Positions 39,903-54,897 of a DNA stretch of 54,897 bases are shown here, piece after piece. The first letter of the stretch is position 1. Each line of letters begins with the position of its first letter. This DNA comes from Empedobacter stercoris (GTDB taxonomy: Bacteria > Bacteroidota > Bacteroidia > Flavobacteriales > Weeksellaceae). Below the pieces are notes generated by a model. That model was not told the DNA's origin. It ran no database searches and saw nothing but the letters and a program-made list of their open reading frames with translations. The position numbers and the translations under genes are program-made. Location: the NCBI RefSeq assembly GCF_020281205.1, contig NZ_JACXZC010000022.1, forward strand, positions 1 through 54,897, given 5' to 3'.

Positions 39903-39941
39903 AGAAGGAAAATAGTGATGTTTTCCTTCTTTTTTTTTTTG
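39903..39941 (+). terminator. terminator of the efflux operon
   Basis: AGAAGGAAAA pairs with TTTTCCTTCT around an 8-nt loop, followed by about ten Ts. Confidence 0.85.
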
Positions 39942-39944
39942 ACT

Positions 39945-40285
39945 AATTTATTTCGCTTCGCGAAACCTTTCCCGAGTCCATAACCCAAAAGTAGCCGCTG
40001 CCCATTTGCTTGATTCAGCAAATCGTCACCGCCTAATCATTTTATGCAGTGAAAATACAAACCTCGCGCGCAATGAGTTTCCTTTTTTTTAAACTATAAA
40101 CCGTCCAAAAAAAGTATTGTATACACTCTACTGCCTCTCTACTGCCACTATGTTGCCTTCATCTTGCCTTCATCCTGCCTTTAAGTAGGGAGTAAGCTGC
40201 AAGTACGAATTGAGGATATAGCTGATTTTTCACGAAACTTAAATCAAAATTATGACTAAAAATATTAGTTCTATTTTTAAGTAGC
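39945..40285. other. non-coding transition into the accessory region, with short tandem repeats
   Basis: The core-to-accessory boundary. Base composition jumps to GC-rich around 39950-40075 (CTCGCGCGCAATGAG). At 40128-40182 there are tandem near-repeats of a TGCC-TTCATCT unit (CTACTGCC twice, then TTGCCTTCATC twice). No ORF could be recognised, and no integron integrase. Confidence 0.5.
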
Positions 40286-40438
40286 GTAGGGTATTTTACT
40301 TTCATTTCAATATTGATTGGAACTCAAGGTTGGAAAAATATGTTTGATAGTCTAAAAAATATAAAAGAAAATCCACTCGATTTTTATATGTTTTTATGGC
40401 CAATTATAATTTCAGAATACTTTTATTTGTTAACATAA
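40286..40438 (+). pseudogene. C-terminal scrap of a hypothetical membrane protein
   Basis: An open stretch of about 50 codons without a start, reading VGYFTFISILIGTQGW, then FYMFLWPIIISEYFYLLT and stop. Two hydrophobic segments. It is probably the tail of a lost cassette or element gene; no family recognised. Confidence 0.35.
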
Positions 40439-40555
40439 AACTTTATTTGAATTTAAAATCACACAAAAAAAATCCATAAACAATTCTAAATACGCAATTA
40501 ATTAGCTTATTTAATTTACTCACTTTCAGTAAATAGCGTCTATTTTACTTTTTAT

Positions 40556-40585
40556 TTGGTTTTTATAGAAAGTTGCGTATATTTG
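40556..40585 (+). promoter_or_regulatory. promoter at the left edge of the cassette array (Pc-like)
   Basis: TTG 40556-40558, 19-bp spacer, perfect TATATTTG 40578-40585. The predicted start (near 40592) falls inside the first cassette boundary at 40589-40598, so transcription would enter the array from outside, as Pc does in integrons. Confidence 0.65.
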
Positions 40586-40588
40586 AGA

Positions 40589-40598
40589 GTTAGCGGCA
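40589..40598 (+). other. left boundary of cassette 1 (attI-like junction)
   Basis: GTTAGCGGCA, the exact reverse complement of TGCCGCTAAC at 41283-41292 at the other end of the same cassette. In integrons the G^TT junction is the recombination point. Nothing to the left resembles a known attI. Confidence 0.6.
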
Positions 40599-40627
40599 AT
40601 ATTCCCAAAACTCAGTACCCAAACCAA

Positions 40628-41275
40628 ATGAAAGTAATAAATCGTAATAATATTTTTCAGAATTATCTAGAAATTAGAAAATTAATCTCAAACTTTCAAA
40701 ATGCTTTTTTTGATGAAGAATACGACTCAAAAGAAGATGAAATTTTTGACGCTCTAAGTTTTGAAAATAAAATTGAAACTGAAAATTTTTCTGTTCGAGT
40801 TCCAAATAATAACCTTGAAAATCATCCTGATAAATTAACTGAAAAAATCAAAAGTTTACTTGACTTTTTAAATGTTAAGGAATTAATTATTATTTCCCAT
40901 TTAAAACTCGATTTTTTTGGAAATTTGGAACACGACTTCCCAAAAGTTATAAATGCTTATAAAAAATTATCAGAATATTTACCAAACAAAAGTTTCAAAG
41001 AAGCTATTGAACTAGACAAATCAGAAATTGCGAATTTTGTAGAAATTTTCTTTTGGTTAGAACGTTGTGACGCAAGTATTCCAGAATATGTTTTTTGGTT
41101 TGATAAAGATGAAAAATTCTGTTTCTATTTGTGCAAATATGGAAACATCCATTTTATAGATTTAACGAAAGGAAATCTAATACCCGAAAACGAATTGAAA
41201 AATCTTGGCTTTGAATTAGATGATGAAAATCAATTTGAAAAAAACGCAATTGAAGGAAGGCAAATAAAAATCTGA
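40628..41275 (+). CDS. cassette 1: hypothetical protein
   Basis: 215 aa from ATG 40628. A TTG 24 codons upstream would also fit the frame, but it is the promoter -33 box. Soluble, acidic and Asn/Lys-rich, no signal peptide; the middle has VKELIIISHLKLDFFGNLEHDF and a C-terminal YVFWFDKDEKFCFYLCKYGN. No recognised domain. Bounded by cassette ends, with its attC-like site starting 7 bp after the stop, the compact layout of an integron cassette. Confidence 0.7.
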   Translation: MKVINRNNIFQNYLEIRKLISNFQNAFFDEEYDSKEDEIFDALSFENKIETENFSVRVPNNNLENHPDKLTEKIKSLLDFLNVKELIIISHLKLDFFGNLEHDFPKVINAYKKLSEYLPNKSFKEAIELDKSEIANFVEIFFWLERCDASIPEYVFWFDKDEKFCFYLCKYGNIHFIDLTKGNLIPENELKNLGFELDDENQFEKNAIEGRQIKI

Positions 41276-41282
41276 TAAATAC

Positions 41283-41480
41283 TGCCGCTAACAAGGTATT
41301 GCCAAAAGCGGGGCTAAAGTGCAAAACTCAGCTTTCGTTTTTCAATTTCGCCAAAAACGAATTTTATTCGTTTTTTATTTGTAAATTTAACTCATAAAAA
41401 TTCGTTTTGGCTCGCCTCGGTGCAGAATTTAAGCTTTCAGCCATAAATTCCCCGCCTTCGGCAATACCCGAAACGTTACC
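41283..41480 (+). other. attC-like site S1 (unoccupied)
   Basis: About 198 bp. R'' side TGCCGCTAAC (41283-41292); nested stem GGTATTGCC (41295-41303) with GGCAATACC (41460-41468); inner GCGGGG with CCCCGC; R' side ACGTTACC ending 41480. The centre is AT-rich and holds further inverted repeats. The architecture R''-L''-centre-L'-R' matches integron attC sites. Confidence 0.75.
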
Positions 41481-41510
41481 TTCAATGCTACCAAAAACAT
41501 CGTTATAAAA

Positions 41511-42065
41511 ATGGGAATAGGAATATTTTATTTATTAATAATTTTAGTCATTCTGACAACTTGTTGCTTAATTTGGCTTTTTATTTCAATCAAAAAGAAA
41601 AGTAAAATTGGAATCATTATACCGATACTATTTTTTCTTTTTGTTGGATTTCTATTTTCATTAAATTACATTGATGAAAACACAATTTCGAATGAAGATG
41701 TAAAAAATGATTTGCAAGTCATAAATTTAAATCTTAAAGATACTTTTAAAATACTTGAAAACGATGTTAGTGGAATGCCTGAGAGGTATCAAAAAACAAA
41801 AATTGAAATTTCCAATACTGACAAACAAAACTTAATTTCAGAAATTATAAATTCAAAAAATTTCGAAAATTTAAAATCTAAAGAAGATATTAGAATAAAT
41901 TCAGAAAAGAAAAACAGATATTTATCACATGATATTTTGAACTATAAATATCCTGATTTTTATTCTCGTGAATTCTACACCGAAATTAATAATATTCCTA
42001 CTCGATTTTTTTTGAAACTTGATATCAAAAGCAATGAACTTGAATATCAGAAAATTGGAGATTAA
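41511..42065 (+). CDS. cassette 2: hypothetical membrane protein
   Basis: 184 aa. Two adjacent N-terminal transmembrane helices (about 5-26 and 33-52) separated by a basic loop KKKSKIG, then a hydrophilic C-terminal domain of about 130 residues. No motif recognised. The cassette starts TTACCT (41476-41481) and its R'' is AGGTAA (42076-42081). The downstream attC-like site is interrupted by an IS. Confidence 0.7.
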   Translation: MGIGIFYLLIILVILTTCCLIWLFISIKKKSKIGIIIPILFFLFVGFLFSLNYIDENTISNEDVKNDLQVINLNLKDTFKILENDVSGMPERYQKTKIEISNTDKQNLISEIINSKNFENLKSKEDIRINSEKKNRYLSHDILNYKYPDFYSREFYTEINNIPTRFFLKLDIKSNELEYQKIGD

Positions 42066-42091
42066 AAAGCACTGCAGGTAACATAGGTAAC

Positions 42092-42733
42092 TGTTGCACA
42101 ACTCCAAATTTTATAAAAATTTAAAATATTTGACCTCGTTTAAGCCATTTTAAGCGAGGTTTATTTTTAGAGAAATATGCTGAATTGTAATATTAGGTTG
42201 CTCAAAAACGCACTTTTTTAAGTCGTGAAGGAGTACTTTTGTAAAAAGCTGTATTTCCCTTGTCTTAGGGAAACAACTTGGGCTAAAACACTCGGGGTTT
42301 TGAAAATTAAGCGCAGGTATTTCTTCAAGTTGTAAGATAAACTTGACATCAAAACGTGTTTATTGGCTTGAGCCATTCCTCTGCTGTTGATTCGTTTTAG
42401 GTTAAAAAAGTTAATCAACGTTCCTAAAACGGGTTCTACTGTAGCACTTCGACGCTTTACTAATCTGCGGTGATACGCTTTGTTTTGGGTGAGTTTTTCG
42501 AGCATTTTATCGTACAAAGGTTTGTGAATGCTTTCTTGACCTTGAGTGCCATAATGTTTTTGAGTGGATTTGTACAAAAAATGTAAATCTAATGCTTGAT
42601 TTACACGGCGATAAAAGTTATCGGTTGAACTAACCGCTCTAAGCTTAGTTCGTAAAATAATTGTGGGGTAAATTCTTTTCGTCCTTGCATTCAACAAGAT
42701 CCGAATTTTTTTTTATTTTTGAGTTGTGCAACA
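42092..42733. mobile_element. IS1182-family deletion derivative, copy 1 (642 bp)
   Basis: Perfect 13-bp inverted ends TGTTGCACAACTC / GAGTTGTGCAACA. The length is identical to copy 2. The only coding content is a transposase shrunk to its two termini. No exact target duplication is visible. The insertion is 9 nt after R'' of S2. Confidence 0.8.
42218..42697 (-). pseudogene. IS1182-type transposase with large internal deletion, copy 1
   Basis: 159 codons joining the N-terminal DUF772-like start (NFYRRVNQALDLHFLYKSTQ, GQESI) directly to the C-terminal end (HKPLYDKMLEKL, TVEPVLGTLINFFNLKRINS, GMAQANKHVLM). Roughly 300 residues with the DDE catalytic core are missing, so it cannot transpose by itself. 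The true start MQGRKEFTPQLFYE is in another frame, shifted by one base near VQP. Confidence 0.8.
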
Positions 42734-42942
42734 AGCACATTGTATTGGCAAAATGCGGGTTAAAGTGTAAGTTGAACTACTCTACTTTTTTATCCGCCAA
42801 TATTTTCCAATTCCACATTTTTGATTAACTTAGTTCCATTGAAAAAATATTGGCTACGATTGGTCTAAAATTGAACTAAAGTTCATTTTTTCCCGCACTT
42901 CGCCAATACTTTTTCCGTTAGCATAAATTCTATACCAAAATC

Positions 42943-43368
42943 ATGTTAAACAAAAAAAGCATTAAAAGAATAAATAAAGTTCTTTCATATTTTCTGATTT
43001 TTTCAGTCATCTCAATTTTTTCTGTTTATATAATTTTTTTCAGCAATTTTGTAATGCCTTGGGAAAGGAATGAAATTATTAAAACTTCATTAAATTGGGG
43101 TGGATTAAATGAATTTCCAAAAAATGCTGAAATTATAAACATTGAAAAAAAAGGTTCAATGTTTACAAGACAATTTATAATTGAATTTAAAAGTTCGGAT
43201 AAAGAAATTAACTCTTGGATAGAAAAAAGTAAAAGATTAAAAAATAATATTCCAAAAATCGAAAATCAAACCAAAATTTACGAAATATATCCTGGTGAAG
43301 AAAATGCTTTCGGTGGAAAAGTTGAGATAAAAAACAATATTGTAAAAATAAATATGAGTTGGAGTTAA
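42943..43368 (+). CDS. cassette 3: hypothetical membrane-anchored protein
   Basis: 141 aa. A basic start (MLNKKSIKRINKVL), one transmembrane helix (about 15-37), then a polar extracytoplasmic domain of about 100 residues (GLNEFPKNAEIINIEKKGSM). No domain recognised. The cassette is bounded by GTTAGCA (42917-42923) and its complement TGCTAAC (43391-43397). Confidence 0.7.
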   Translation: MLNKKSIKRINKVLSYFLIFSVISIFSVYIIFFSNFVMPWERNEIIKTSLNWGGLNEFPKNAEIINIEKKGSMFTRQFIIEFKSSDKEINSWIEKSKRLKNNIPKIENQTKIYEIYPGEENAFGGKVEIKNNIVKINMSWS

Positions 43369-43406
43369 ACAAAAATCACAAAAGAACTTCTGCTAACAGC
43401 AGTAAC

Positions 43407-44048
43407 TGTTGCACAACTCCAATTATTATAAAAATTTAAAATATTTGACCTCGTTTATGTCTTTTTAAGCGAGGTTTATTTTTTGGAAAATATATTATAA
43501 TATAAAATTAGGTTTGCTTAAAAACGCACTTTTTTAAGTCGTGAAGGAGTAATTTTGTAAAAAGCTGTATTTCCCTTGTTTTAGGGAAACAACTTGGGCT
43601 ATAACACTCGGGATTTTGAAAATAAAGCGCAGGTATTTCTTCAAGTTGTAAGATAAACTTGACATCAAAACGTGTTTATTGGCTTGTGCCATTCCTCTGC
43701 TGTTGATTCGTTTTAGGTTAAAAAAGTTAATCAACGTTCCTAAAACGGGTTCTACTGTAGCACTTCGACGCTTTACTAACCTGCGGTGATATACTTTGTT
43801 TTGGGTGAGTTTTTCGTGCATTTTATCGTACAAAGGTTTGTGAATGCTCTCTTGACTTTGGCTGTCGTAATATTTTTGAGTGGATTTGTACAAAAAATGT
43901 AAATCTAATGCTTGATTTACACGGCGATAAAAGTTATCGGGTGGAACTAACTGATCTAAAATTAGTTCGTAAAATAATTGTGGGTAAATTCTTTTCGTCC
44001 TTGCATACTACAAGATCCGAATTTTTTTTATTTTTGAGTTGTGCAACA
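43407..44048. mobile_element. IS1182-family deletion derivative, copy 2 (642 bp)
   Basis: The same perfect 13-bp ends and the same 642-bp length as copy 1, same orientation, same insertion offset (9 nt after R''). It differs from copy 1 by scattered substitutions and small indels. Confidence 0.8.
43534..44011 (-). pseudogene. IS1182-type transposase remnant, copy 2
   Basis: The same internally deleted transposase as copy 1 (119 codons open, MYKSTQKYYDSQSQESIHKP onward). In this copy the DQLVPPDNFYRR junction is intact, but a lost C near the start codon (THNYF instead of TPQLF) shifts the frame, so start and body are again separated. Confidence 0.75.
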
Positions 44049-44268
44049 AGCACAATGTATTGGCGCAATGGCGGATTAAGTCTAAAATTTAAAGTTTTCG
44101 GCATTCTATTCCGCAAAAAGCTGTTTTTCTTTTGTTTTTTTTATTAAATTTACCAAAAGCCACAGCTTTTGCTTCGTTCGGTTCTGAATTGAACTTTCGC
44201 TCAATTCAAGCCCGCACTTCGCCAAGCCGCGGCAAGTTGTGTGACGTTTTAAAAAACTGACTGCTGAA

Positions 44269-44704
44269 TTGAAAAACATAAAATTTTTAGTTACAAAACA
44301 TTATCTTTACGGACTCATTCTCCTTTCCATTTTTTATGCTGTTATCGGAGAAATTCCAAGGTGGTATACGATTGAAAGAGATTGGATAGAATGGACTACG
44401 TCAATAATTGCGATACCTAATAATTGGAAAATTAGTTTCAAAATATTTGACTAAAAAAATAGCGAAAGAAAGAAGAAAATATTATGGAATATCATTTTTA
44501 GCACTCTTCGCTTCGTGGATTCTAATATTGTACTCTAAAGCATTAGTTGTCGGAATAATAAGTTCATTTGAATTTGGGCAGGCGCGGGTTTTGGAATCAC
44601 TTGTAGGATATTCAATTTATCAACTTTGGATTTACGGAATATTTGGAATTATTCACGGAATATTTGGCGGATATTTTCTTTCGAGAGAATTAAAAGAATC
44701 GTAA
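44269..44704 (+). pseudogene. cassette 4: membrane protein gene with a one-base frameshift
   Basis: Two overlapping frames (44269-44454 and 44408-44704) encode consecutive parts of one protein. Removing one A from CCTAATAATTGG (44416-44427) joins them as SIIAIPIIGKLVSKYL into a protein of about 145 aa with four hydrophobic segments. The start would be TTG 44269. A homopolymer-type read error could also explain this. The cassette is bounded by GTTGTGTG (44236-44243) and CACACAAC (44715-44722). Function unknown. Confidence 0.6.
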
Positions 44705-44714
44705 AAGAAAACGG

Positions 44715-44852
44715 CACACAACAAACATATTGCCGTCAGGCGGGCAAAATACTTCCGTTTGAAATTTATTTGTAAATTTAAACATTGTCGCTTGCTTGGA
44801 GTTTTCTGGCGAAAATCCCGCCCGAACGGCAATATGCAAAACGTTATAGGAC
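44715..44852 (+). other. attC-like site S4 (unoccupied)
   Basis: About 138 bp. R'' CACACAAC (44715-44722); 11-bp stem CATATTGCCGT (44726-44736) with ACGGCAATATG (44826-44836); inner GGCGGGC with GCCCGCC-type arm; R' ACGTTATAGGAC, whose GTTATAGGAC (44843-44852) starts cassette 5. The most compact and classical of the sites. Confidence 0.8.
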
Positions 44853-44868
44853 ATTTACGCTAACTACT

Positions 44869-45594
44869 ATGGAAAAAAGTCTTCTTGAAAAATATGAAGG
44901 AAGTAACACTTTGAGAGCTTTAGTCAATTTGATACCAACCATTGGAGGTTCATTAGATATTTTACTTTCAATTAAGGGTTCGAAATGGAGAGAAGATAGA
45001 CTCAAAGAATTCTTATCTCATTTAGATTCTAGGATTTCAGAAATTGAAAGTCTTGATTTAATTAACAAAATTAGCGAATCAGAGGAATTTTATGATTTAA
45101 TAGTTCAGTCGATGAATTCTGTTATTAAAACTAGACACAGAGAAAAAATTATATGTTATACTAATATTTTGATATGTAATTTAACAAATCAAGAGTCTAA
45201 AATTAGCAGTGATTTATATGTTTCAATACTAGATTCAATAACAATTGATGAAATAAAATATTTATCAGCATTAAAAGATTCAAATTTTCAAATAACTTTT
45301 GAAAAAATTAATGGTGAAAATGTTATTTGGGAAATGTATAAACAACATTTAGAGAAAACTAATATTAATAAAATTCCAGAAAACTGTTTGTTAAAATTTG
45401 ATAACGAATTAATATGGAAAATATTAAGTGATAAAAATCTGATTTTAATTGAAAGCAAAAAGGATTTTAAATATTTACCATACACATATTCGACTTCGAT
45501 GTCAAGTCTTTCGAGTACTATTACATCTTCTTCAAGTACAACTTATAAAATTTCTGAATTTGGAAAGGACTTCATTAATTGGATATTAAACTAA
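44869..45594 (+). CDS. cassette 5: hypothetical protein with N-terminal hydrophobic helix
   Basis: 241 aa from ATG 44869. The N-terminus NTLRALVNLIPTIGGSLDIL forms a glycine-broken hydrophobic helix followed by WREDRLKEFLSHLDSRISEIE, a layout seen in many accessory-genome proteins of unknown function from genomic islands. The rest is helical and polar, with a Ser/Thr-rich stretch (STSMSSLSSTITSSSSTTYK) just before a short C-terminal end. A membrane-associated or pore-type effector role is only a guess. Cassette ends GTTATAGGAC and GTCCTATAAC match over 10 bp. Confidence 0.7.
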   Translation: MEKSLLEKYEGSNTLRALVNLIPTIGGSLDILLSIKGSKWREDRLKEFLSHLDSRISEIESLDLINKISESEEFYDLIVQSMNSVIKTRHREKIICYTNILICNLTNQESKISSDLYVSILDSITIDEIKYLSALKDSNFQITFEKINGENVIWEMYKQHLEKTNINKIPENCLLKFDNELIWKILSDKNLILIESKKDFKYLPYTYSTSMSSLSSTITSSSSTTYKISEFGKDFINWILN

Positions 45595-45618
45595 TAAACG
45601 TCCTATAACAGCGGTAAC

Positions 45619-46270
45619 CGTTGCACAACTCCCAATTTCGGAAAATAATTCTAAAAAACGAGCTTTTTTAAAGCGATTTCTGAGAAGCTTTATATTTTAA
45701 GGTAGACTAAATTTCTAAAATTTGAGTAGCTTATTTTGCATTTTTTAAGGGATTAGGGATGCTTTGAAAATTCCCAAGTTGTTCCCTTCTCTTTGGGATA
45801 GAATTTGGACTATTGAGGTTGTAATAGGAAGTGGTTTTTTCACTATAAACTTCAAGTATTTATTTAAGTTATAGGTCAAGGCCGCCATCAGTACATGTTT
45901 GTTCGCTTGGGCTAAGCCGCGGCTGTTGATGCGTTTCATGTTGTGATGATTGATCAGCGTTCTAAAACTGGTTCTACCGTAGCACTTCGACACTTTACTA
46001 ACCTGCGGTGATATGCTTTGTTTTTGGTGAGTTTTTCGTGCATTTTATCGTACAAAGGTTTGTGAATGCTTTCTTGACCTTGAGTGCCATAATGTTTTTG
46101 AGTGGATTTGTACAAAAAATGTAAATCTAATGCTTGATTTACACGGCGATAAAAGTTATCGGTTGAACTAACCGCTCTAAGCTTAGTTCGTAAAATAATT
46201 GTGGGGTAAATTCTTTTCGTCCTTGCATACTACAAGATCCGAATTTTTTTTATTTTTGAGTTGTGCAACA
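45619..46270. mobile_element. IS1182-family deletion derivative, copy 3 (652 bp, mosaic)
   Basis: Ends CGTTGCACAACTC / GAGTTGTGCAACA. The right part from about 45975 is nearly identical to copy 1, but the left ~350 bp comes from a different IS1182 relative, so this copy is a recombinant. Again 9 nt after R''. Confidence 0.7.
45745..46235 (-). pseudogene. IS1182-type transposase remnant, copy 3
   Basis: The open part reads SFRTLINHHNMKRINSRGLA then QANKHVLMAALTYNLNKYLK, a different version of the transposase C-terminus. A one-base loss near 45960 (GTTC-TAAAAC) puts it out of frame with the N-terminal part shared with copies 1 and 2. Catalytic core absent. Confidence 0.65.
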
Positions 46271-46320
46271 ATCACATGGGTTTTGCCATCGCACTGAATG
46301 GTCTTGCTATATATGTAAAT

Positions 46321-48880: not shown

Positions 48881-49273
48881 GCTAATAACTAAGCTTTAGC
48901 TTCGCTCTGTTCGGGCAGAGTCCTTGGGTCATCTTGTCCGGTGGGTGGGCACAAGATGAATTGAAAATCACTGAATACTAAAACAAATAATAAACCATGA
49001 AGTAAAGCCCGTTGAACCCTTCGATAAACTCAGGGCAGGCCGACCTTAGGAAGCTTAATACGTATGATGAAGTTTTCGAAGTGCAGCTTTAAGATACATG
49101 AGCAGTAATTTTACAATTACTGCTTTTTTTTATAGTTAATTTAGCATTTTTGTCTGTCTAAACTATTGATGATAGGCTAAAACATTACGTTATTAATACC
49201 TTATGATTTTTAGAAATATTAACTATATTTGAAAGGAGTTTGTGTACTTTTTTCACAGACTGACGTTAGCAGC
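48881..49273 (+). repeat. inter-cassette repeat A (~390 bp)
   Basis: Starts GCTAATAACTAAGCTTTAGC and ends CACAGACTGACGTTAGCAGC. Within it: a terminator (stem 49101-49110 with 49115-49124, T run) and a perfect -7 TATATTTG (49224-49231). Much of it is repeated in B (49846-50284); the start recurs in C (51477). It separates gene units as attC sites do, but no attC-type L''/L' stem is evident. Confidence 0.7.
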
Positions 49274-49317
49274 AACCGCTTGGGACAACCGTAACTTGAC
49301 AATTTAACAGTATAAAA

Positions 49318-49773
49318 ATGAAAATAAAGCACTTTTACATACGGCTGAACAAAGAAAATTTACAAATAGACCAAGACACTTTAAATAGTTTTTTGGACAA
49401 TGTTGTTGTCAAGAAAACAGTAACAGAGCTCATAAATGGACAGCCTAACTTTTGGTCAATTTTAGTTTTTTATGAGGAGCAAAAAACAAACAGACAAGAC
49501 AGAAACTCTGAAAAAAATGCTGTAATTTCGGAAACAGAACTTACAGAAGAAGAGAAAAATATTTATGATGTTTTGAGAGAATGGCGACAAGACAAAGCGA
49601 GTGAATTAAATGTTCCTAGTTATGTAGTTGCTCATAACACAGAGCTTATGACCATAACTAAAATAAAACCTCAATCAGTAGATGAACTTTCAAAAGTAAA
49701 GGGCTTTGTTAGTGGTGGACAAAAAATTACAAAATACGGAGATGATATAATCGCTGTTCTTAATTCAATCTAA
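49318..49773 (+). CDS. cassette-like unit 6: HRDC domain protein
   Basis: 151 aa. Residues about 75-150 are an HRDC domain (LTEEEKNIYDVLREWRQDKA, VPSYVVAHNTELMTI, VDELSKVKGFVSGGQKITKY), normally the nucleic-acid-binding tail of RecQ helicases or RNase D. Here it follows only a ~70-residue N-terminal part (FYIRLNKENLQIDQDTLNSF) and no helicase. Unit ends TTAGCAGC (49266-49273) and GCTGCTAA (49844-49851) are exact complements. Stand-alone DNA or RNA binder of unknown purpose. Confidence 0.8.
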   Translation: MKIKHFYIRLNKENLQIDQDTLNSFLDNVVVKKTVTELINGQPNFWSILVFYEEQKTNRQDRNSEKNAVISETELTEEEKNIYDVLREWRQDKASELNVPSYVVAHNTELMTITKIKPQSVDELSKVKGFVSGGQKITKYGDDIIAVLNSI

Positions 49774-49843
49774 AAACCAATATTTTGTTAGTTATTGTGC
49801 CTCGACTACGTCTGATACAATACAGCATCACTTCTGCGGTGAT

Positions 49844-50284
49844 GCTGCTAATAACTAAGCTTTAGCTTCGCTCTGTTCGGGCAAAGCCCTTGGGTCGTCT
49901 TGTCTGGAAGACACGAAACCTTTAGGTTCACCGAATACAAAAACAAATAGAATGCATGAGGTAGATGAACTAATAATCACTGAACACCAAAACAAATCAT
50001 TAAAATGTGAAGTAAAGCCCTTTGAAACCTTCGATAAACTCAGGGCATGCCCACCGGAGTAACTTAATACGTATGATGAAGTTTTCGAAGTGCAGCTTTA
50101 AGATATACGAGCAGTAATTTTACGATTACTGCTTTTTTTTGGGCTGATATAGAATTTTTGCCTGTCTAAAACCATTGATGATAGGCATAAAACCTTGAAT
50201 TATGAAGACCTAATGAATTTATGAAATATTAACTATATTTGAAAGGAGTTTGTGTGCTTTTTTCACAGACTGCCGTTAGTGGCA
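49844..50284 (+). repeat. inter-cassette repeat B (~430 bp)
   Basis: Homologous to repeat A: the same start CTAATAACTAAGCTTTAGC, the block CCTTCGATAAACTCAGGGCA, a terminator AGCAGTAAT...ATTACTGCT (50110-50133), a -7 TATATTTG (50234-50241) and the end CAGACTGCCGTTAGTGGCA. The insulating pair terminator plus promoter is kept despite divergence elsewhere. Confidence 0.7.
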
Positions 50285-50299
50285 ATTATATCAAAACCG

Positions 50300-51472
50300 A
50301 TGAATAAGTTTATTACAATAGTTTTTTGTTTGAATTCCTTAATAAGTTTTGGACAAACAAATTCAGAAAATTACAGATTTTCTAATGACATTTTATCTCA
50401 AATTGATAATGATACTGTCGCTTGGAAATATCAGACAGGAGCATCTGAATTGTCATTTAACGGATATTATGCAGAAGTCCTTAAAATTTGGGACAAAAAT
50501 GGTGTCAGAAAACCAAAAACAACAAACAAAGACAGTTTATACTATATCAATAGCAAAAAAGTCAATGCAAAAGATTACATAATTGAACAATCTAAAAATT
50601 CACAGATTGTAATTATTAACGAAGCACACCACATCCCTAAACATCGCACTTTCACTAAATCTCTTCTAAAAGATTTATATGACAATGGCTATCGTTATCT
50701 TGGACTCGAAGCATTATTTGATTCCACAATTAATGAACGAAAATTTCCTATAATAGAAAGTGGATACTACACAAAAGAACCTGAGTTTGGAAATTTGATT
50801 TCAGAGGCTTTAAAAATTGGCTATACCCTTTTCAGTTATGAAGCTTCTGAAGGCAAGAATGGAAAAGAAAGAGAAATTGAACAAGCTGAAAACATTCAAA
50901 AGTTTATTGAAAGTGTTCCAAATGCAAAAATTCTTATTCATTGCGGCTATGCTCACGCTTTCGAAAATGAATATCCTTCTTGGGGAAAAGCAATGGCAGG
51001 TAGATTAAAAGATAATACGAACATAGACCCTTTTACCATAGACCAAACAATGTTTTTAGAAAGGTCTGACAAAGAAAATAATCATTTATTTATCAAACTT
51101 AATGACACAACAGAACCTATTGTACTTATAGATAAAGACGGACAAGTTTTTAATGGAAATAAAGAAATTAGACAAACAGATATTGTTATTATACATCCTG
51201 AAACAAAATATATAGATAATCGACCTGATTGGTTACAGAATGGAAAAGAAAGCTACACAATACCTTCAAATAAAATTAAAAACAGTTCACCCTTACTTTT
51301 GTTAGCTTATAGAGAAAATGAATTTGAAAATAATGGAGTACCAACTGATATAATCGAAATTAATGATAATAAGCCATCTAAAAAACTGTATCTCACAAAA
51401 GGAAATTACACTATTGTAATAAAGGACAAAAACTATAACATCATTGAAAAATACAAGGTTGAAATCAAATAA
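50300..51472 (+). CDS. cassette-like unit 7: secreted Tiki/TraB/ChaN-like protein
   Basis: 390 aa from ATG 50300 (an in-frame upstream start would add 16 residues that overlap the repeat end). Signal peptide MNKFITIVFCLNSLISFGQ, so exported. Residues about 105-260 resemble the EreA/ChaN/Tiki fold: IVIINEAHHIPKHRTFTKSL with an EahH metal-type motif, YRYLGLEALF, and ILIHCGYAHAFEN with a conserved His pair. The C-terminal third is beta-rich. Such proteins are hydrolases or peptidases; the reaction is unknown. Unit ends TTAGTGGCA (50276-50284) and TGCCACTAA (51474-51482) are exact complements. Confidence 0.6.
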   Translation: MNKFITIVFCLNSLISFGQTNSENYRFSNDILSQIDNDTVAWKYQTGASELSFNGYYAEVLKIWDKNGVRKPKTTNKDSLYYINSKKVNAKDYIIEQSKNSQIVIINEAHHIPKHRTFTKSLLKDLYDNGYRYLGLEALFDSTINERKFPIIESGYYTKEPEFGNLISEALKIGYTLFSYEASEGKNGKEREIEQAENIQKFIESVPNAKILIHCGYAHAFENEYPSWGKAMAGRLKDNTNIDPFTIDQTMFLERSDKENNHLFIKLNDTTEPIVLIDKDGQVFNGNKEIRQTDIVIIHPETKYIDNRPDWLQNGKESYTIPSNKIKNSSPLLLLAYRENEFENNGVPTDIIEINDNKPSKKLYLTKGNYTIVIKDKNYNIIEKYKVEIK

Positions 51473-51476
51473 CTGC

Positions 51477-51662
51477 CACTAATAACTAAGCTTTCGTCTT
51501 GCCCGGAGGGCATGAGATGGAAGCCTGTTGAACGTAACCGGAGTTAGCTTTTAATTCTTATGGAGTTATCGAAGTTTAGTTTTAAGATATACAAGCAGTA
51601 TTTTATATGATTACTGCTTTTTTTTGTGCTTCCTTAGACTGTGAAGTACTAAAAACTTTAAT
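51477..51662 (+). repeat. inter-cassette repeat C, truncated
   Basis: Begins ACTAATAACTAAGCTTTCG, keeps the terminator AGCAGTA...TACTGCT (51594-51618), then stops where the IS91-type element begins; the promoter-containing right half is missing here. Confidence 0.6.
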
Positions 51663-52596
51663 TTTCAGGCATAAAATCCCTTACCCATTAAGTTAATTAA
51701 CAGGGGAATTTACTTTTGATTTAAAAAGATAAGTTTTTGGTGGACCTCTATCTCCAAAGAGTGCTAATGTTACTAAATTGCCTTCTTTACAGTAATAACA
51801 AAGGCGATGTTTTGTTTTTATTTTTGATTCTTTTCGTTTGACTTTTAATTGTTTTTGTAAGTCTTGTAATTTTCCTCTTTTCCAACTGCTGCTTAAAATT
51901 CCACAATGTCTTATTCGAACAAAACGTTTGGGTAAAATGTGTAAACTAAAACGACGAATAAATTCGTGATTTGGTAAGACCATTTGTTTATTTTGACCAT
52001 TGTTGCGATAATCTTTGTACTGAAACGTGACTTGTGTTGCTGTTACATTTTTTAGTCGATGATTACTAATGGCTACCTTGTGTGTGTATCGTCCTAAATA
52101 TTCGATCACTTGCTTGGGGCCACCAAAAGGTCGTTTGGCATAAACCACCCAATTCTTTTCAAACAAACTTTGTAAAACTTGAGCATCAGCCAACTTTTCT
52201 TTGCGCAACAAGGTTACATATTTAGCACGAAAAACCTTACTCAACGCTTTTACTGCAAACAAATATTTATCGGTTTTTATCTTGCGTTTCCAATTTCCAT
52301 TTCTATCAATTCCACCGCCAGGAACAATGCAATGCAAGTGCGGATGCAAACTTAAATTTTGTCCCCAGGTATGCAGAATGGCAATCATTCCCAATTGCAA
52401 TCCTTCCGTTTTTCCAAATTGAGACAACGTAGCCCAAGTTGCTTCAAATAATATGCGATACATGATTTGCGGATGAGAAATCGCTAAACCATTGAGCGTA
52501 TCGGGCAACGTAAATACCAAATGATAATACGAACAAGGCAACAAATCTTGCTCGCGAGCTTGTATCCATTCTTCACGTTTGTGTCCTTGACAATTT

Positions 52597-52896
52597 CCCC
52601 GTAGGATTTTATCATTATATTTATATAAAAAAATGTATTACTATGTTTATGTATTATATAGCATAAAAGATAAAATGTTATATACTGGATATACTAAAGA
52701 TTTAAACAAACGAATTAAAACTCATAATGAAGGAAAAGTTGTTGCGACAAAGTATAGACAACCTCTTATTCTTATTTATTGGGAAGGTTGCTTAAATCAA
52801 CAAGATGCCACAAAAAGAGAAAAATACCTAAAATCAGGTAGTGGTAAAATTTATTTAAAAAATAGATTAAAAAATTATTGGAATAATCCAACGGGG
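52597..52896. mobile_element. ~300-bp GIY-YIG element with inverted ends
   Basis: The left end CCCCGTAGGATT (52597-52608) and right end AATCCAACGGGG (52885-52896) are inverted copies with one mismatch; flanks AATTT and TAAAGG extend the similarity weakly. The insert occupies a single codon boundary of the IS91 transposase. It encodes only one 88-aa protein whose stop codon abuts the right end. Confidence 0.7.
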
Positions 52897-52899
52897 TAA
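52633..52899 (+). CDS. GIY-YIG nuclease family protein (UPF0213-like)
   Basis: 88 aa single-domain nuclease: YVYVLYSIKDKMLYTGYT carries the GIY-like VYV and YIG-like YTG (17-19), Arg27 lies in NKRIKTHN, and Glu63 in TKREKYLKSGSGK. These are the family's metal- and phosphate-contacting positions, so it may be active. Small relatives of this kind are scattered in Bacteroidetes genomes; the frame here runs into the right inverted end (NNPTG then stop). Being the only gene of a small insert, it may promote its own spread, which is inference. Confidence 0.85.
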   Translation: MYYYVYVLYSIKDKMLYTGYTKDLNKRIKTHNEGKVVATKYRQPLILIYWEGCLNQQDATKREKYLKSGSGKIYLKNRLKNYWNNPTG

Positions 52900-53105
52900 A
52901 GGACAATGCCTGTTTCTGCAACTGTTGTAACTGATGCTAATGTTTCCGCACGCATCACAAGCATCTACATGTCCGCTCAAAGCTGCTGTTCTACATAAAG
53001 TCAACGCCCGTAAGGTTTTCTCTTGATGAACCGTAAAGTTTTGGTTGGACAAATCGACCTTTCTAAGCACATCGGCTACACTTCGGCCAGGCTCAGTACG
53101 GGCTT

Positions 53106-54045
53106 CTACTTGCGGCTGCATAAGGCAAAAACGGTATCGAGTGGACTATGAACTTTTTGTTGTTCCAATTGGCAGACGTGCAGGTATTCCATTGTGGTTT
53201 CTACTCGTTCGTGTCCCATCAGTTTTTGAACTTGAAGAATATTCACACCATCTTCCAACAAGTGTGTAGCGTAGCTGTGACGCAAGGTATGCGTGTGAAC
53301 GTCTTTTAAAATTCCAGCTTTTCTACAAACCGACTGAATCGCCCATTGAACTCCACGTAGACTATAACGCGAATCAAATCCTTTGGCATCTTTGGTGTTG
53401 CCAGTAAATAAAAAAGTAGTCGGATGTTCAATTGAAATGTACTTTTTTATCCCTCGAATGAGATAATCAGAAAGCGGAACATAACGATCTTTTTTACCTT
53501 TGCTTTGAACTATATGAAGCAGTTTACGATCAAAATCTAAATGTTTTAATTCAATTTTTCTTACCTCCATACAACGAAGTCCACAACTGTAAATTAAACC
53601 AATAAGTAAACGATGTTTTAATAAATCAGCACTTTATAACATTCGCCAAATCTCTTCTCGGCTTAAAATAACAGGTAATTTTTTCTGTTTTGAAATAGAG
53701 GGAAGTGCGAGATGATCATAAGGTAAACCTTCTGTTTTTAAGAGAAAACGTAAGCCATAAACCGTGTGTTTAAAATAAGATTGCGAAGGAGAATTTGAGC
53801 GTTGTTGGAGTTCAAAAAGATAATCTTTAACCTGTTCAGGATCTAATTGGGTTGGTAAAGATCCAAACGAAGCGCCATTGCAGCAACATGACGTGAATAA
53901 TTTTCAAACGTGCGTTTACTTCGACCTAAAATAGAAATATTTCGTTCAAAACGTTGCAGAAGTTCAGAAAAACCTGTAATTTCACGACAAGCACGATTTA
54001 ACAAGGTCGAGTTTAATTTCTCAGGAGATTTTTTTTAGTAACCAT
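53106..54045 (-). pseudogene. IS91-associated tyrosine recombinase, broken
   Basis: From ATG 54045 the protein would be about 310 aa. The frame is lost in an A8 run right after MVTKK (near 54032) and again near 53880 (MALR then FGSLPTQLDPEQ), and a TAA at 53634-53636 interrupts IWRML-SADLL. The catalytic part is still open (53570-53106): SCGLRCMEVRKIEL, HTHTLRHSYATHLLEDG, LMGHERVETTMEYLHV. Sequence and position match the integrase-like ORF of IS91 elements, not IntI. Confidence 0.8.
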
Positions 54046-54060
54046 AATTTTGAATTTTTC

Positions 54061-54408
54061 AATATCCTAAATATATGTTTTATAATGGAAAAGCTACCGG
54101 AGGTTTAGTTCAACAACTAATCTTCCTTCTTGCCCGAAGGGCAGAAGGTAAAAACCTGTTGAGGAACCTGTAATTAGAACTATCATATATTATATAGCTA
54201 AAATTATCTGTTTTACTTTATTATTTAGTGACAGAATTTCCCAGAGCTACTAATTATAAAGCAAAACATCTAATCATTTCTTGCTGTAAAAACGATGTTT
54301 TCGGGTCAGAAATCTACTATCTAGTTTCTCAAATCTAAAAATCTCAAAAAATATTTCCCGTCATAACAGTCAGTTAGGGATAGAAAGTAAAATAAATGTA
54401 AAATGTGT
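54061..54408. other. intergenic stretch with a degenerate cassette repeat (D)
   Basis: No gene. 54112-54180 resembles repeat C (ACTAAT, CTTGCCCGAAGGGCAGAAGG, CCTGTTGA), so the cassette repeat flanks the IS91 element on both sides. The remainder is AT-rich. Confidence 0.5.
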
Positions 54409-54440
54409 TTGGAAGTTCGGAAAAATGGGTTGTATATTTG
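54409..54440 (+). promoter_or_regulatory. rrn promoter P1
   Basis: TTG 54409-54411, 21-bp spacer, perfect TATATTTG 54433-54440, about 400 nt before 16S. Confidence 0.7.
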
Positions 54441-54518
54441 CAATCCCAATACGAAAGACGAGTAGTATTGTAGTTGACATAAAGTAAAACAAACGACAAA
54501 AATTTTTTAAAATAAATT

Positions 54519-54549
54519 TTGTTGATTTAAGAAATAAGTTTTACCTTTG
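54519..54549 (+). promoter_or_regulatory. rrn promoter P2
   Basis: TTG 54519-54521, 20-bp spacer, perfect TACCTTTG 54542-54549, followed by GCAACCGC. Followed by a small hairpin AAATCAC/GTGATTT. Confidence 0.75.
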
Positions 54550-54631
54550 CAACCGCAAATCACGAGAGTGATTTTGCTGCGAAGTAAATTGACTTATTGA
54601 AATAAAAACTTTAAATTTTTTAAAATAAAAT

Positions 54632-54661
54632 TTGGTAGTTAAGAAATAAGTTTTACCTTTG
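54632..54661 (+). promoter_or_regulatory. rrn promoter P3 (duplicate of P2)
   Basis: TTG 54632-54634, 19-bp spacer, TACCTTTG 54654-54661 then GCAACCGC. The ~55 bp around P2 and P3 are nearly identical, about 112 bp apart. Confidence 0.75.
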
Positions 54662-54840
54662 CAACCGCTTACAGAAACAGCGATGTTTTGTAAGTTATAA
54701 ACTGAGAAGTTCATTTGAAATTATAATATATACAGAAGAAAAAATAAGCCGAATAATAACGAAGTCAATCCTTGAATAATGGAGCTTAAGGAAATTCGAA
54801 GTTGTAAAAACTAAGTCTTTTAGACTAAACAAAATAATTT

Positions 54841-54897
<57 letters not shown>

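Follow-up and report, generated by a model that had tools for sequence, protein, structure and literature searches.

The window analysed here, a contig of 54,897 nt from Empedobacter stercoris (NZ_JACXZC010000022.1, assembly GCF_020281205.1), carries between positions 40589 and 45609 five consecutive gene units that open and close with inverted pairs of bases (R'' and R'). A preliminary description had read them as an integron-like array of five cassettes, more precisely as a cluster of attC sites lacking an integrase (CALIN). Our analysis suggests that these units represent gene cassettes preceded by an integron-like site of entry (attI), probably moved by tyrosine recombinases other than the integron integrase IntI. 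The array and its head comprise the following features (ORF, open reading frame):

39929..40591, plus strand: leader module, a repeat of about 660 bp ahead of cassette 1
40575..40592, plus strand: attI-like site GCGTATATTTGAGAGTTA, directly before cassette 1
40589..41474, plus strand: cassette 1; ORF 40631-41275, without Pfam match; pair GTTAGCGGCA at 40589, closing at 41292 (10 nt exact)
41283..41484, plus strand: attC-like site S1, intact; 73.3 bits with the covariance model; bottom-strand fold z -4.08
41475..42916, plus strand: cassette 2; ORF 41511-42065; attC split by a remnant of an insertion sequence (IS), its right half reaching 42926; pair GTTACCT at 41475, closing at 42082 (7 nt exact)
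42917..44235, plus strand: cassette 3; ORF 42943-43368; attC split by an IS remnant; pair GTTAGCA at 42917, closing at 43397 (7 nt exact)
44236..44842, plus strand: cassette 4; ORFs 44269-44454 and 44408-44704; pair GTTGTGTG at 44236, closing at 44722 (8 nt exact)
44713..44852, plus strand: attC-like site S4, intact; 94.4 bits with the covariance model; bottom-strand fold z -4.12
44843..45609, plus strand: cassette 5 up to its R''; ORF 44869-45594; pair GTTATAGGAC at 44843, closing at 45609 (10 nt exact)

All five R''/R' pairs named in the preliminary description proved exact, each unit opening with GTT plus 4-7 bases and closing with the reverse complement, which bears out the claim that each cassette carries its own ends. 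Chance was gauged on Markov sequence of the same composition: for GTT/AAC pairs separated by 300-1500 nt, the probability of a match is 0.0099 at 7 nt or more and 0.0003 at 10 nt or more. Since about 1% of such pairs match by chance at 7 nt, one pair of that length counts for little by itself; the two 10-nt pairs are striking on their own, the other three only in context. We judge the array to be real because S1 and S4 fold beyond shuffled sequences, both match a covariance model of the site family, and this family shows compensatory changes. Both sites are complete hairpins, as had been claimed, and in the folding check of the bottom strands none of 200 shuffles did as well for either site; the top strand of S4 reached z -3.08, with 1 of 200 shuffles as good. 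S4 is one of the 23 training sites of the model, S1 lies outside the training set. The right half of attC 2 was recovered at 42730-42926 (34.6 bits) and, marginally, that of attC 3 at 44045-44245 (22.4 bits, E 0.025, in the smaller search only), and a hairpin or its interrupted remains stands behind each of the five genes. Among the five window proteins, defence-gene models gave one weak match, to cassette 5 (E 5e-4), whose ORF also shows similarity to Abi_alpha below the Pfam family cut-off.

The covariance model, R1, was built from 23 aligned sites of similar length with the structure predicted on the same alignment, so that its E-values are rough; it replaced a generic inverted-repeat scan, which was dropped for its many chance matches in coding DNA. 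Twelve of the 14 predicted pairs in the alignment have changes on both sides. The site family occurs in 162 of 246 genomes of the bacterial family at E 1e-7 (27 of 33 genera) and in 251 of 395 genomes of the class at E 1e-8 (138 of 197 genera). Around more distant recombinases, 21 of 80 loci held sites at E 0.01, all 21 titled Bacteroidota. In these more distant Bacteroidota (L129, L133, L136, L152, L161 and others) the array lies mostly downstream of the recombinase and in the same direction, not divergent, with three opposite-strand matches as exceptions (L124, L155 and L156).

The sites fold into hairpins with paired R and L boxes, as do attC sites of IntI-type integrons. That their R boxes deviate from the textbook RYYYAAC/GTTRRRY had been noted before and holds almost throughout: the two halves of the consensus fit in 1 and 3, respectively, of 98 sites with a core, counted from 104 rows that are a selection of the stronger matches and of which six without the AAC/GTT core were dropped, and in this respect the sites depart from the integron definition. 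In most sites with an ungapped 6-bp stem, a count that leaves out 36 of the 98, the R' spacer exceeds the R'' spacer by 3-4 bases; eight show the reverse. The inner loop is most often symmetric 4/4 (26 of 62 scored sites). Bottom-strand folds of five sites contain an extra unpaired stem base in two (S4 and the site of locus L084) and none in the other three.

At the head of the array, the 18 nt of GCGTATATTTGAGAGTTA recur without a difference between the recombinase gene and the first cassette at two loci of the longer recombinase type (L206 and L209), with a common run of 24 nt at L209. Forms with 1-3 differences occur at L205, L207, L208, L210, L211 and L214, which places the pattern in 8 of the 12 long-type loci with sites; it was unmatched at L204, L212, L213 and L220 and at four site-less loci scanned alongside. 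Allowing one mismatch, 0.05 occurrences of this pattern would be expected in the window; the genome has one. Two groups of attI sites are conserved up to the GTT and then followed by different cassettes (7 of 7 and 6 of 6 loci), so that an attI stands beside the recombinase at the point where cassettes join, as in integrons. Moreover, the attI-like site and the array promoter seem to be one and the same, because TATATTTG together with a TTTG 19 nt upstream fits what we take to be the Bacteroidota promoter consensus.

The leader module is repeated four more times in a second genome of the same species, G139 (L259-L262), where its copies end at most 6 nt from the GTT, and once in G003 (L263), where the likeness continues 20 nt further, to 40610. 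Remnants of a recombinase gene in the leader were absent from the matches listed, which came from few queries (best E 1.2) and are not a full test. One common stretch (window 54112-54897; L065 305-937; L259, L261, L262 and L263) is found no more than a few kb from several arrays and leader copies; its copy at the end of the window runs into what is presumably the start of a 16S rRNA gene. It looks as if DNA near rRNA genes collects arrays and leader copies.

The preliminary description had found no integrase gene nearby. This is correct for the array itself, but the window contains an interrupted tyrosine recombinase at 53106-53852, beside an IS91-type transposase, and the same genome encodes an intact array recombinase on another contig, C21. 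The interrupted gene was rejected as the missing integrase, since it adjoins the transposase as do like pairs annotated on a Myroides plasmid. C21 and a further contig, C41, were reached via a pattern drawn from S1 and S4. C21 encodes a 279-aa tyrosine recombinase together with a divergent attI and, all in one direction, nine complete cassettes that reach the end of the contig; eight of their sites are recovered by the model, and the ninth, near 13.0-13.3 kb of locus L033, was read by eye. The cassette genes include DinB-like, APH-like, ABC-F, Lnu(H), alpha/beta hydrolase, NmrA-like and AadS proteins. On C41 there is an array in which one site is occupied by an IS1182 element. Across the genome the model lists 19 sites at E 0.1 (eight on C21, three each on C14 and C41, two on C29 and one each on C13, C28 and C49). 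The closest named proteins come from Algoriella and Empedobacter. The array is thus more than a set of attC sites that merely lack an integrase, given its attI-like head and a like platform with a recombinase in the same genome.

Comparison of related genomes, which the preliminary description had proposed as a check, revealed differences at the level of single cassettes. At the same locus in G139, one unrelated cassette, GTTATGTGGC...GCCACATAAC, stands in place of the five; the left flank is 97.9% identical to 40112 and 95.6% to 40592, with the break at the GTT, and the right flank is 95% identical from 45857. The ABC-F cassette of C21 reappears as first cassette in G139 with 100% identity over 1888 nt and is cut at the GTT on both sides, next to a recombinase flank of 91% identity. 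Likewise, the AadS cassette of C21 has a 99.8% identical counterpart in first position in G028, where the recombinase shares 80% identity, and it recurs on six plasmids at 99.7-99.9% identity, nearly whole on five and to 88% on one. In a comparison of 48 loci, shared segments (identity at least 97%, length at least 350 nt; pairs not independent) had 127 interior ends, 68 of which fall no more than 12 nt from a boundary GTT in either sequence, with boundaries taken from the covariance model, from attI motifs and in one case by eye; random single positions do so in 0.85%, the fair yardstick being about twice that. The genomes thus show gain, loss and exchange of cassettes with precise ends, as expected of an integron.

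Such exchange bears on two other explanations. Static intergenic hairpins between ordinary genes, i.e. terminators or repeats of the repetitive extragenic palindromic type, would account for a hairpin behind every gene of the array. This reading is most improbable, as it is contradicted by the single unit that, within the species, takes the place of five at the GTT, by identical units in other genera and on plasmids, and by searches against Rfam, which from five sources returned no family but tRNA at gathering scores. Alternatively, the cassettes might be shuffled through attC hairpins that are nearly identical, by homologous recombination or by natural transformation, with the recombinase as a bystander. 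Sites of the same type are indeed very alike, some shared segments end within a site and not at the GTT, and no recombinase gene accompanies the window array. We nevertheless regard shuffling by homology as unlikely, because each R'' in the window pairs with the R' of its own cassette and not with that of the next, because first cassettes change at the GTT of the attI, which has no attC on its other side, and because an insertion without flanking homology has been published for the same bacterial family (PMC13148043).

The recombinases encoded beside arrays form a short and a longer group. Sites were found at 18 of 20 short-group loci, with a best E of at most 1.2e-11 in each; eight loci of this group had given training sites, and 10 of the other twelve have sites. 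Among 20 longer relatives, eleven (L204-L214) all have adjacent arrays, and one of the nine others has sites (L220, 8-18 kb away). Dense arrays occupy most of the 20 kb fetched at L204, L206 and L210. In G186, the genome of the densely filled L206, R1 sites to one side of the recombinase gene at 1333492 extend for about 96 kb (G186:C1:1233420-1329475), which matches a superintegron in size.

Across 56 aligned recombinases, the span from the KDR to the LRHSxATH motif is 74-75 residues in all 38 short and long rows, 79-82 in eight Xer proteins and 116 in 10 of 10 IntI; in the other Bacteroidota it is 74-75 in 18 of 19 readable loci and 79 in one, two of the 21 being unreadable. The I2 helix and the HH pair of IntI are absent from the 38 aligned array recombinases. 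Further, an array recombinase reaches 190 bits with the IntI model TIGR02249 (cut-off 265), leaving profile positions 179-237 unmatched and thus showing no I2 domain. It also stays below the curated cut-offs for XerD (178.8 of 329.6 bits), XerC (173.3 of 335.15) and the XerA-type model NF040815 (204.8 of 220 bits). Its predicted structure (pLDDT 86, pTM 0.60) has no helix at the place of I2, and matches XerA best, with IntI in a near-tied group behind. In a maximum-likelihood tree, IntI stands apart from the array groups and the array recombinases group apart from XerD; we claim no order of origin because this tree carries a long-branch warning. Judged from these comparisons, the recombinases next to the arrays are not IntI.

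That the host recombinases XerC and XerD move the cassettes, as they do for phages and elements that use dif, might be suspected from the nearest folds, which are Xer proteins. It is very unlikely in view of an attI that adjoins the array recombinase, the separate grouping in the tree and the lack of sites at 20 of 20 XerD loci, although these were centred on the gene, whereas the array loci extend to one side. An ordinary integron whose canonical IntI was lost or is located elsewhere would share the cassette anatomy and the layout of attI and attC, but we hold this, too, to be improbable. IntI passed the model cut-off in none of the 60 genomes searched among relatives. In a sample of the phylum, 105 of 395 genomes pass, and by the kinship listed for 107 genomes at E 1e-60, one belongs to the same class and none to the same order or family. 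The off-consensus R boxes and an array-side gene without I2 argue in the same direction, as does R1, which finds no site at E 1 in 20 canonical IntI loci of about 3.5 kb.

Having weighed these alternatives, we consider it quite probable that the array consists of five gene cassettes headed by an integron-like attI and that these were moved, likely as folded single strands, by tyrosine recombinases without I2. At the level of sequence, the evidence consists of cassette ends, attC-like covarying hairpins, an attI conserved up to the GTT, cassette-precise differences and array-side recombinase genes. Cassettes would be inserted at the attI-like site and removed as folded single strands, with catalysis by the array recombinases lacking the I2 helix; the substrate would be a folded strand, presumably a particular one of the two. 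With an attI of the long-recombinase type, the window array may have lost the recombinase that belonged to it and would at present depend on one acting in trans, if it is served at all, while a promoter overlapping the attI might drive the first cassette. The preliminary description thus stands with respect to the cassettes, their own ends, the off-consensus boxes and the cassette-precise differences, but not as to a plain CALIN or membership in known integrons. As far as sequences can tell, the system works like an integron yet is not a member by the IntI test; it falls outside the known integrons because neither its recombinases nor its boxes conform to the IntI-type definition. More broadly, we think it likely that there are two kinds of integron and that the one prevalent in the class Bacteroidia is distinct from the IntI type, its cassettes, attC hairpins and attI being served by Xer-like recombinases in which I2 was never present.

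Several observations weigh against this interpretation. Only the C21 recombinase was matched in the genome at E 1e-40 (10 of 19 candidates scored), and therefore nothing cognate to the attI of the window was found. The window array is isolated, with three sites hit by IS remnants, and may no longer move. In a third attI group, one of three members (L080) has no GTT, and L070 was left unaligned. The remaining 59 of the 127 segment ends fall outside the known boundaries, and many of the rows compared stem from the AadS cassette. Sites were missing at two of the 20 short-type loci, L067, where the contig ends about 1 kb past the gene, and L082, and the 12 of 20 long-type loci with sites do not amount to a rate because eleven were chosen for known nearby sites. 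At L222 and L223, whose recombinases match one from Riemerella across the region of I2, the fetched stretch contains no array; 13 sites are listed for each of their genomes. The top strand of the L084 site folds as well as the bottom strand (-34.8 and -35.9 kcal/mol), and the whole-genome scans with R1 cover genomes of the class only.

Besides the cassettes, the window contains three remnants of an IS1182-type element:

42089..42738, strand not given: remnant inside attC 2, directly behind R''
43404..44053, strand not given: remnant inside attC 3
45616..46275, strand not given: remnant ending the array

Sites 2, 3 and 5 are interrupted at one identical place, six bases behind the AAC of R'' (42083-42088, 43398-43403 and 45610-45615). 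The L'/R' half of attC 5 was not seen behind the third remnant, and site 5 appears to have lost it. The same fixed point was found for 19 of 19 left ends read, not all of them independent, six bases after an R'' ending in AAC or, once, AAT (window, L034, L065, L073, L212, L258, L259, L262, L263, L265 and L267). In the genome, all 14 matches to the terminal repeat of the element lie on four contigs (C13, C14, C29 and C41), each of which has attC-like sites too. The element looks like an insertion sequence that targets attC.

Two further cassette-like units of another kind were read by eye at 49265-49855 and 50275-51486. They begin and end with GTTAGCAGCA...TGCTGCTAATAAC and GTTAGTGGCA...TGCCACTAATAAC, followed by a common hairpin-rich stretch, carry TAATAAC in place of TAAC in R'' and are absent from the R1 matches; one cassette on C41 (about 2090-2760 of L034) seems to end in the same way. 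An IS91-type transposase with a tyrosine recombinase occupies window 51693-53852 and L034 2-1918, and both copies contain at the same point of the transposase region an 88-aa frame that we assume to be GIY-YIG-like.

Integron integrases have been defined by their IntI-specific additional domain, I2 (PMC9668308, PMC7790495), and a CALIN as an attC cluster without integrase (PMC8618304). In IntI, the I2 helix and the HH pair hold extrahelical bases, two of which lie on one side of the folded bottom strand (PMC3053210). Integron theory holds that the gain of I2 turned a Xer-like recombinase into a user of folded single strands (PMC7790495), and a chicken-and-egg problem has been named, namely how selection could favour I2 while attC sites were yet to arise, or attC sites without I2 (PMC4792948). 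Natural cassette systems without I2 make this question testable; if our interpretation is true, cassette capture needs no I2, and such systems may preserve a state before IntI or represent a parallel invention. They would explain why the IntegronFinder 2 survey, in the part available, names a single complete integron in Bacteroidetes proper, that of Salinibacter ruber (PMC9024848), and also the spread of genes such as aadS as exact units among Bacteroidota plasmids. In titles and abstract openings of the open-licence literature without preprints, no integron of this kind was named, which is no proof that none is in print.

A possible counterpart is a transformation study of 2026 on Riemerella anatipestifer, in which aph(3')-IVb was inserted at the same site independently of homology and the mechanism was left open; the inserted gene is flanked by 27 bp on the 5' side and 140 bp on the 3' side, the latter with an attC-like fold, and like findings are cited there for lnu(H) and blaRATA (PMC13148043). 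Recombinases without I2 are candidates for this unexplained gene capture. A 358-aa recombinase of the array group with a 74-residue span is recorded under R. anatipestifer (P0200), and we infer that it is linked to the insertion experiment. The published case resembles ours in the bacterial family, the homology-free insertion at one site, the attC-like fold and the nearby aadS, but in the available part of the report no recombinase, attI or cassette array is named, and an integron scan of the recipient region was negative (PMC13148043).

Among established systems, a CALIN shares with the window array the attC-like sites and the lack of a recombinase beside them, but the window array has an attI-like head and a recombinase type other than IntI. 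XerA, XerC and XerD are nearest in fold and domain make-up; unlike them, the array recombinases are encoded beside cassette arrays, form separate groups in the tree and have the shorter KDR-LRHSxATH span. From IntI-type integrons the system differs in a recombinase without the I2 insert and without an HH pair such as IntI sets on the extrahelical base, in R boxes other than RYYYAAC/GTTRRRY with a lopsided spacer next to them, and, in the more distant Bacteroidota, in the mostly shared direction of recombinase and array. With the sedentary chromosomal integrons (superintegrons) it nevertheless has in common the divergent recombinase, the attI, the one-way array, the R''/L''/L'/R' hairpins and the GTT at the cassette boundary.

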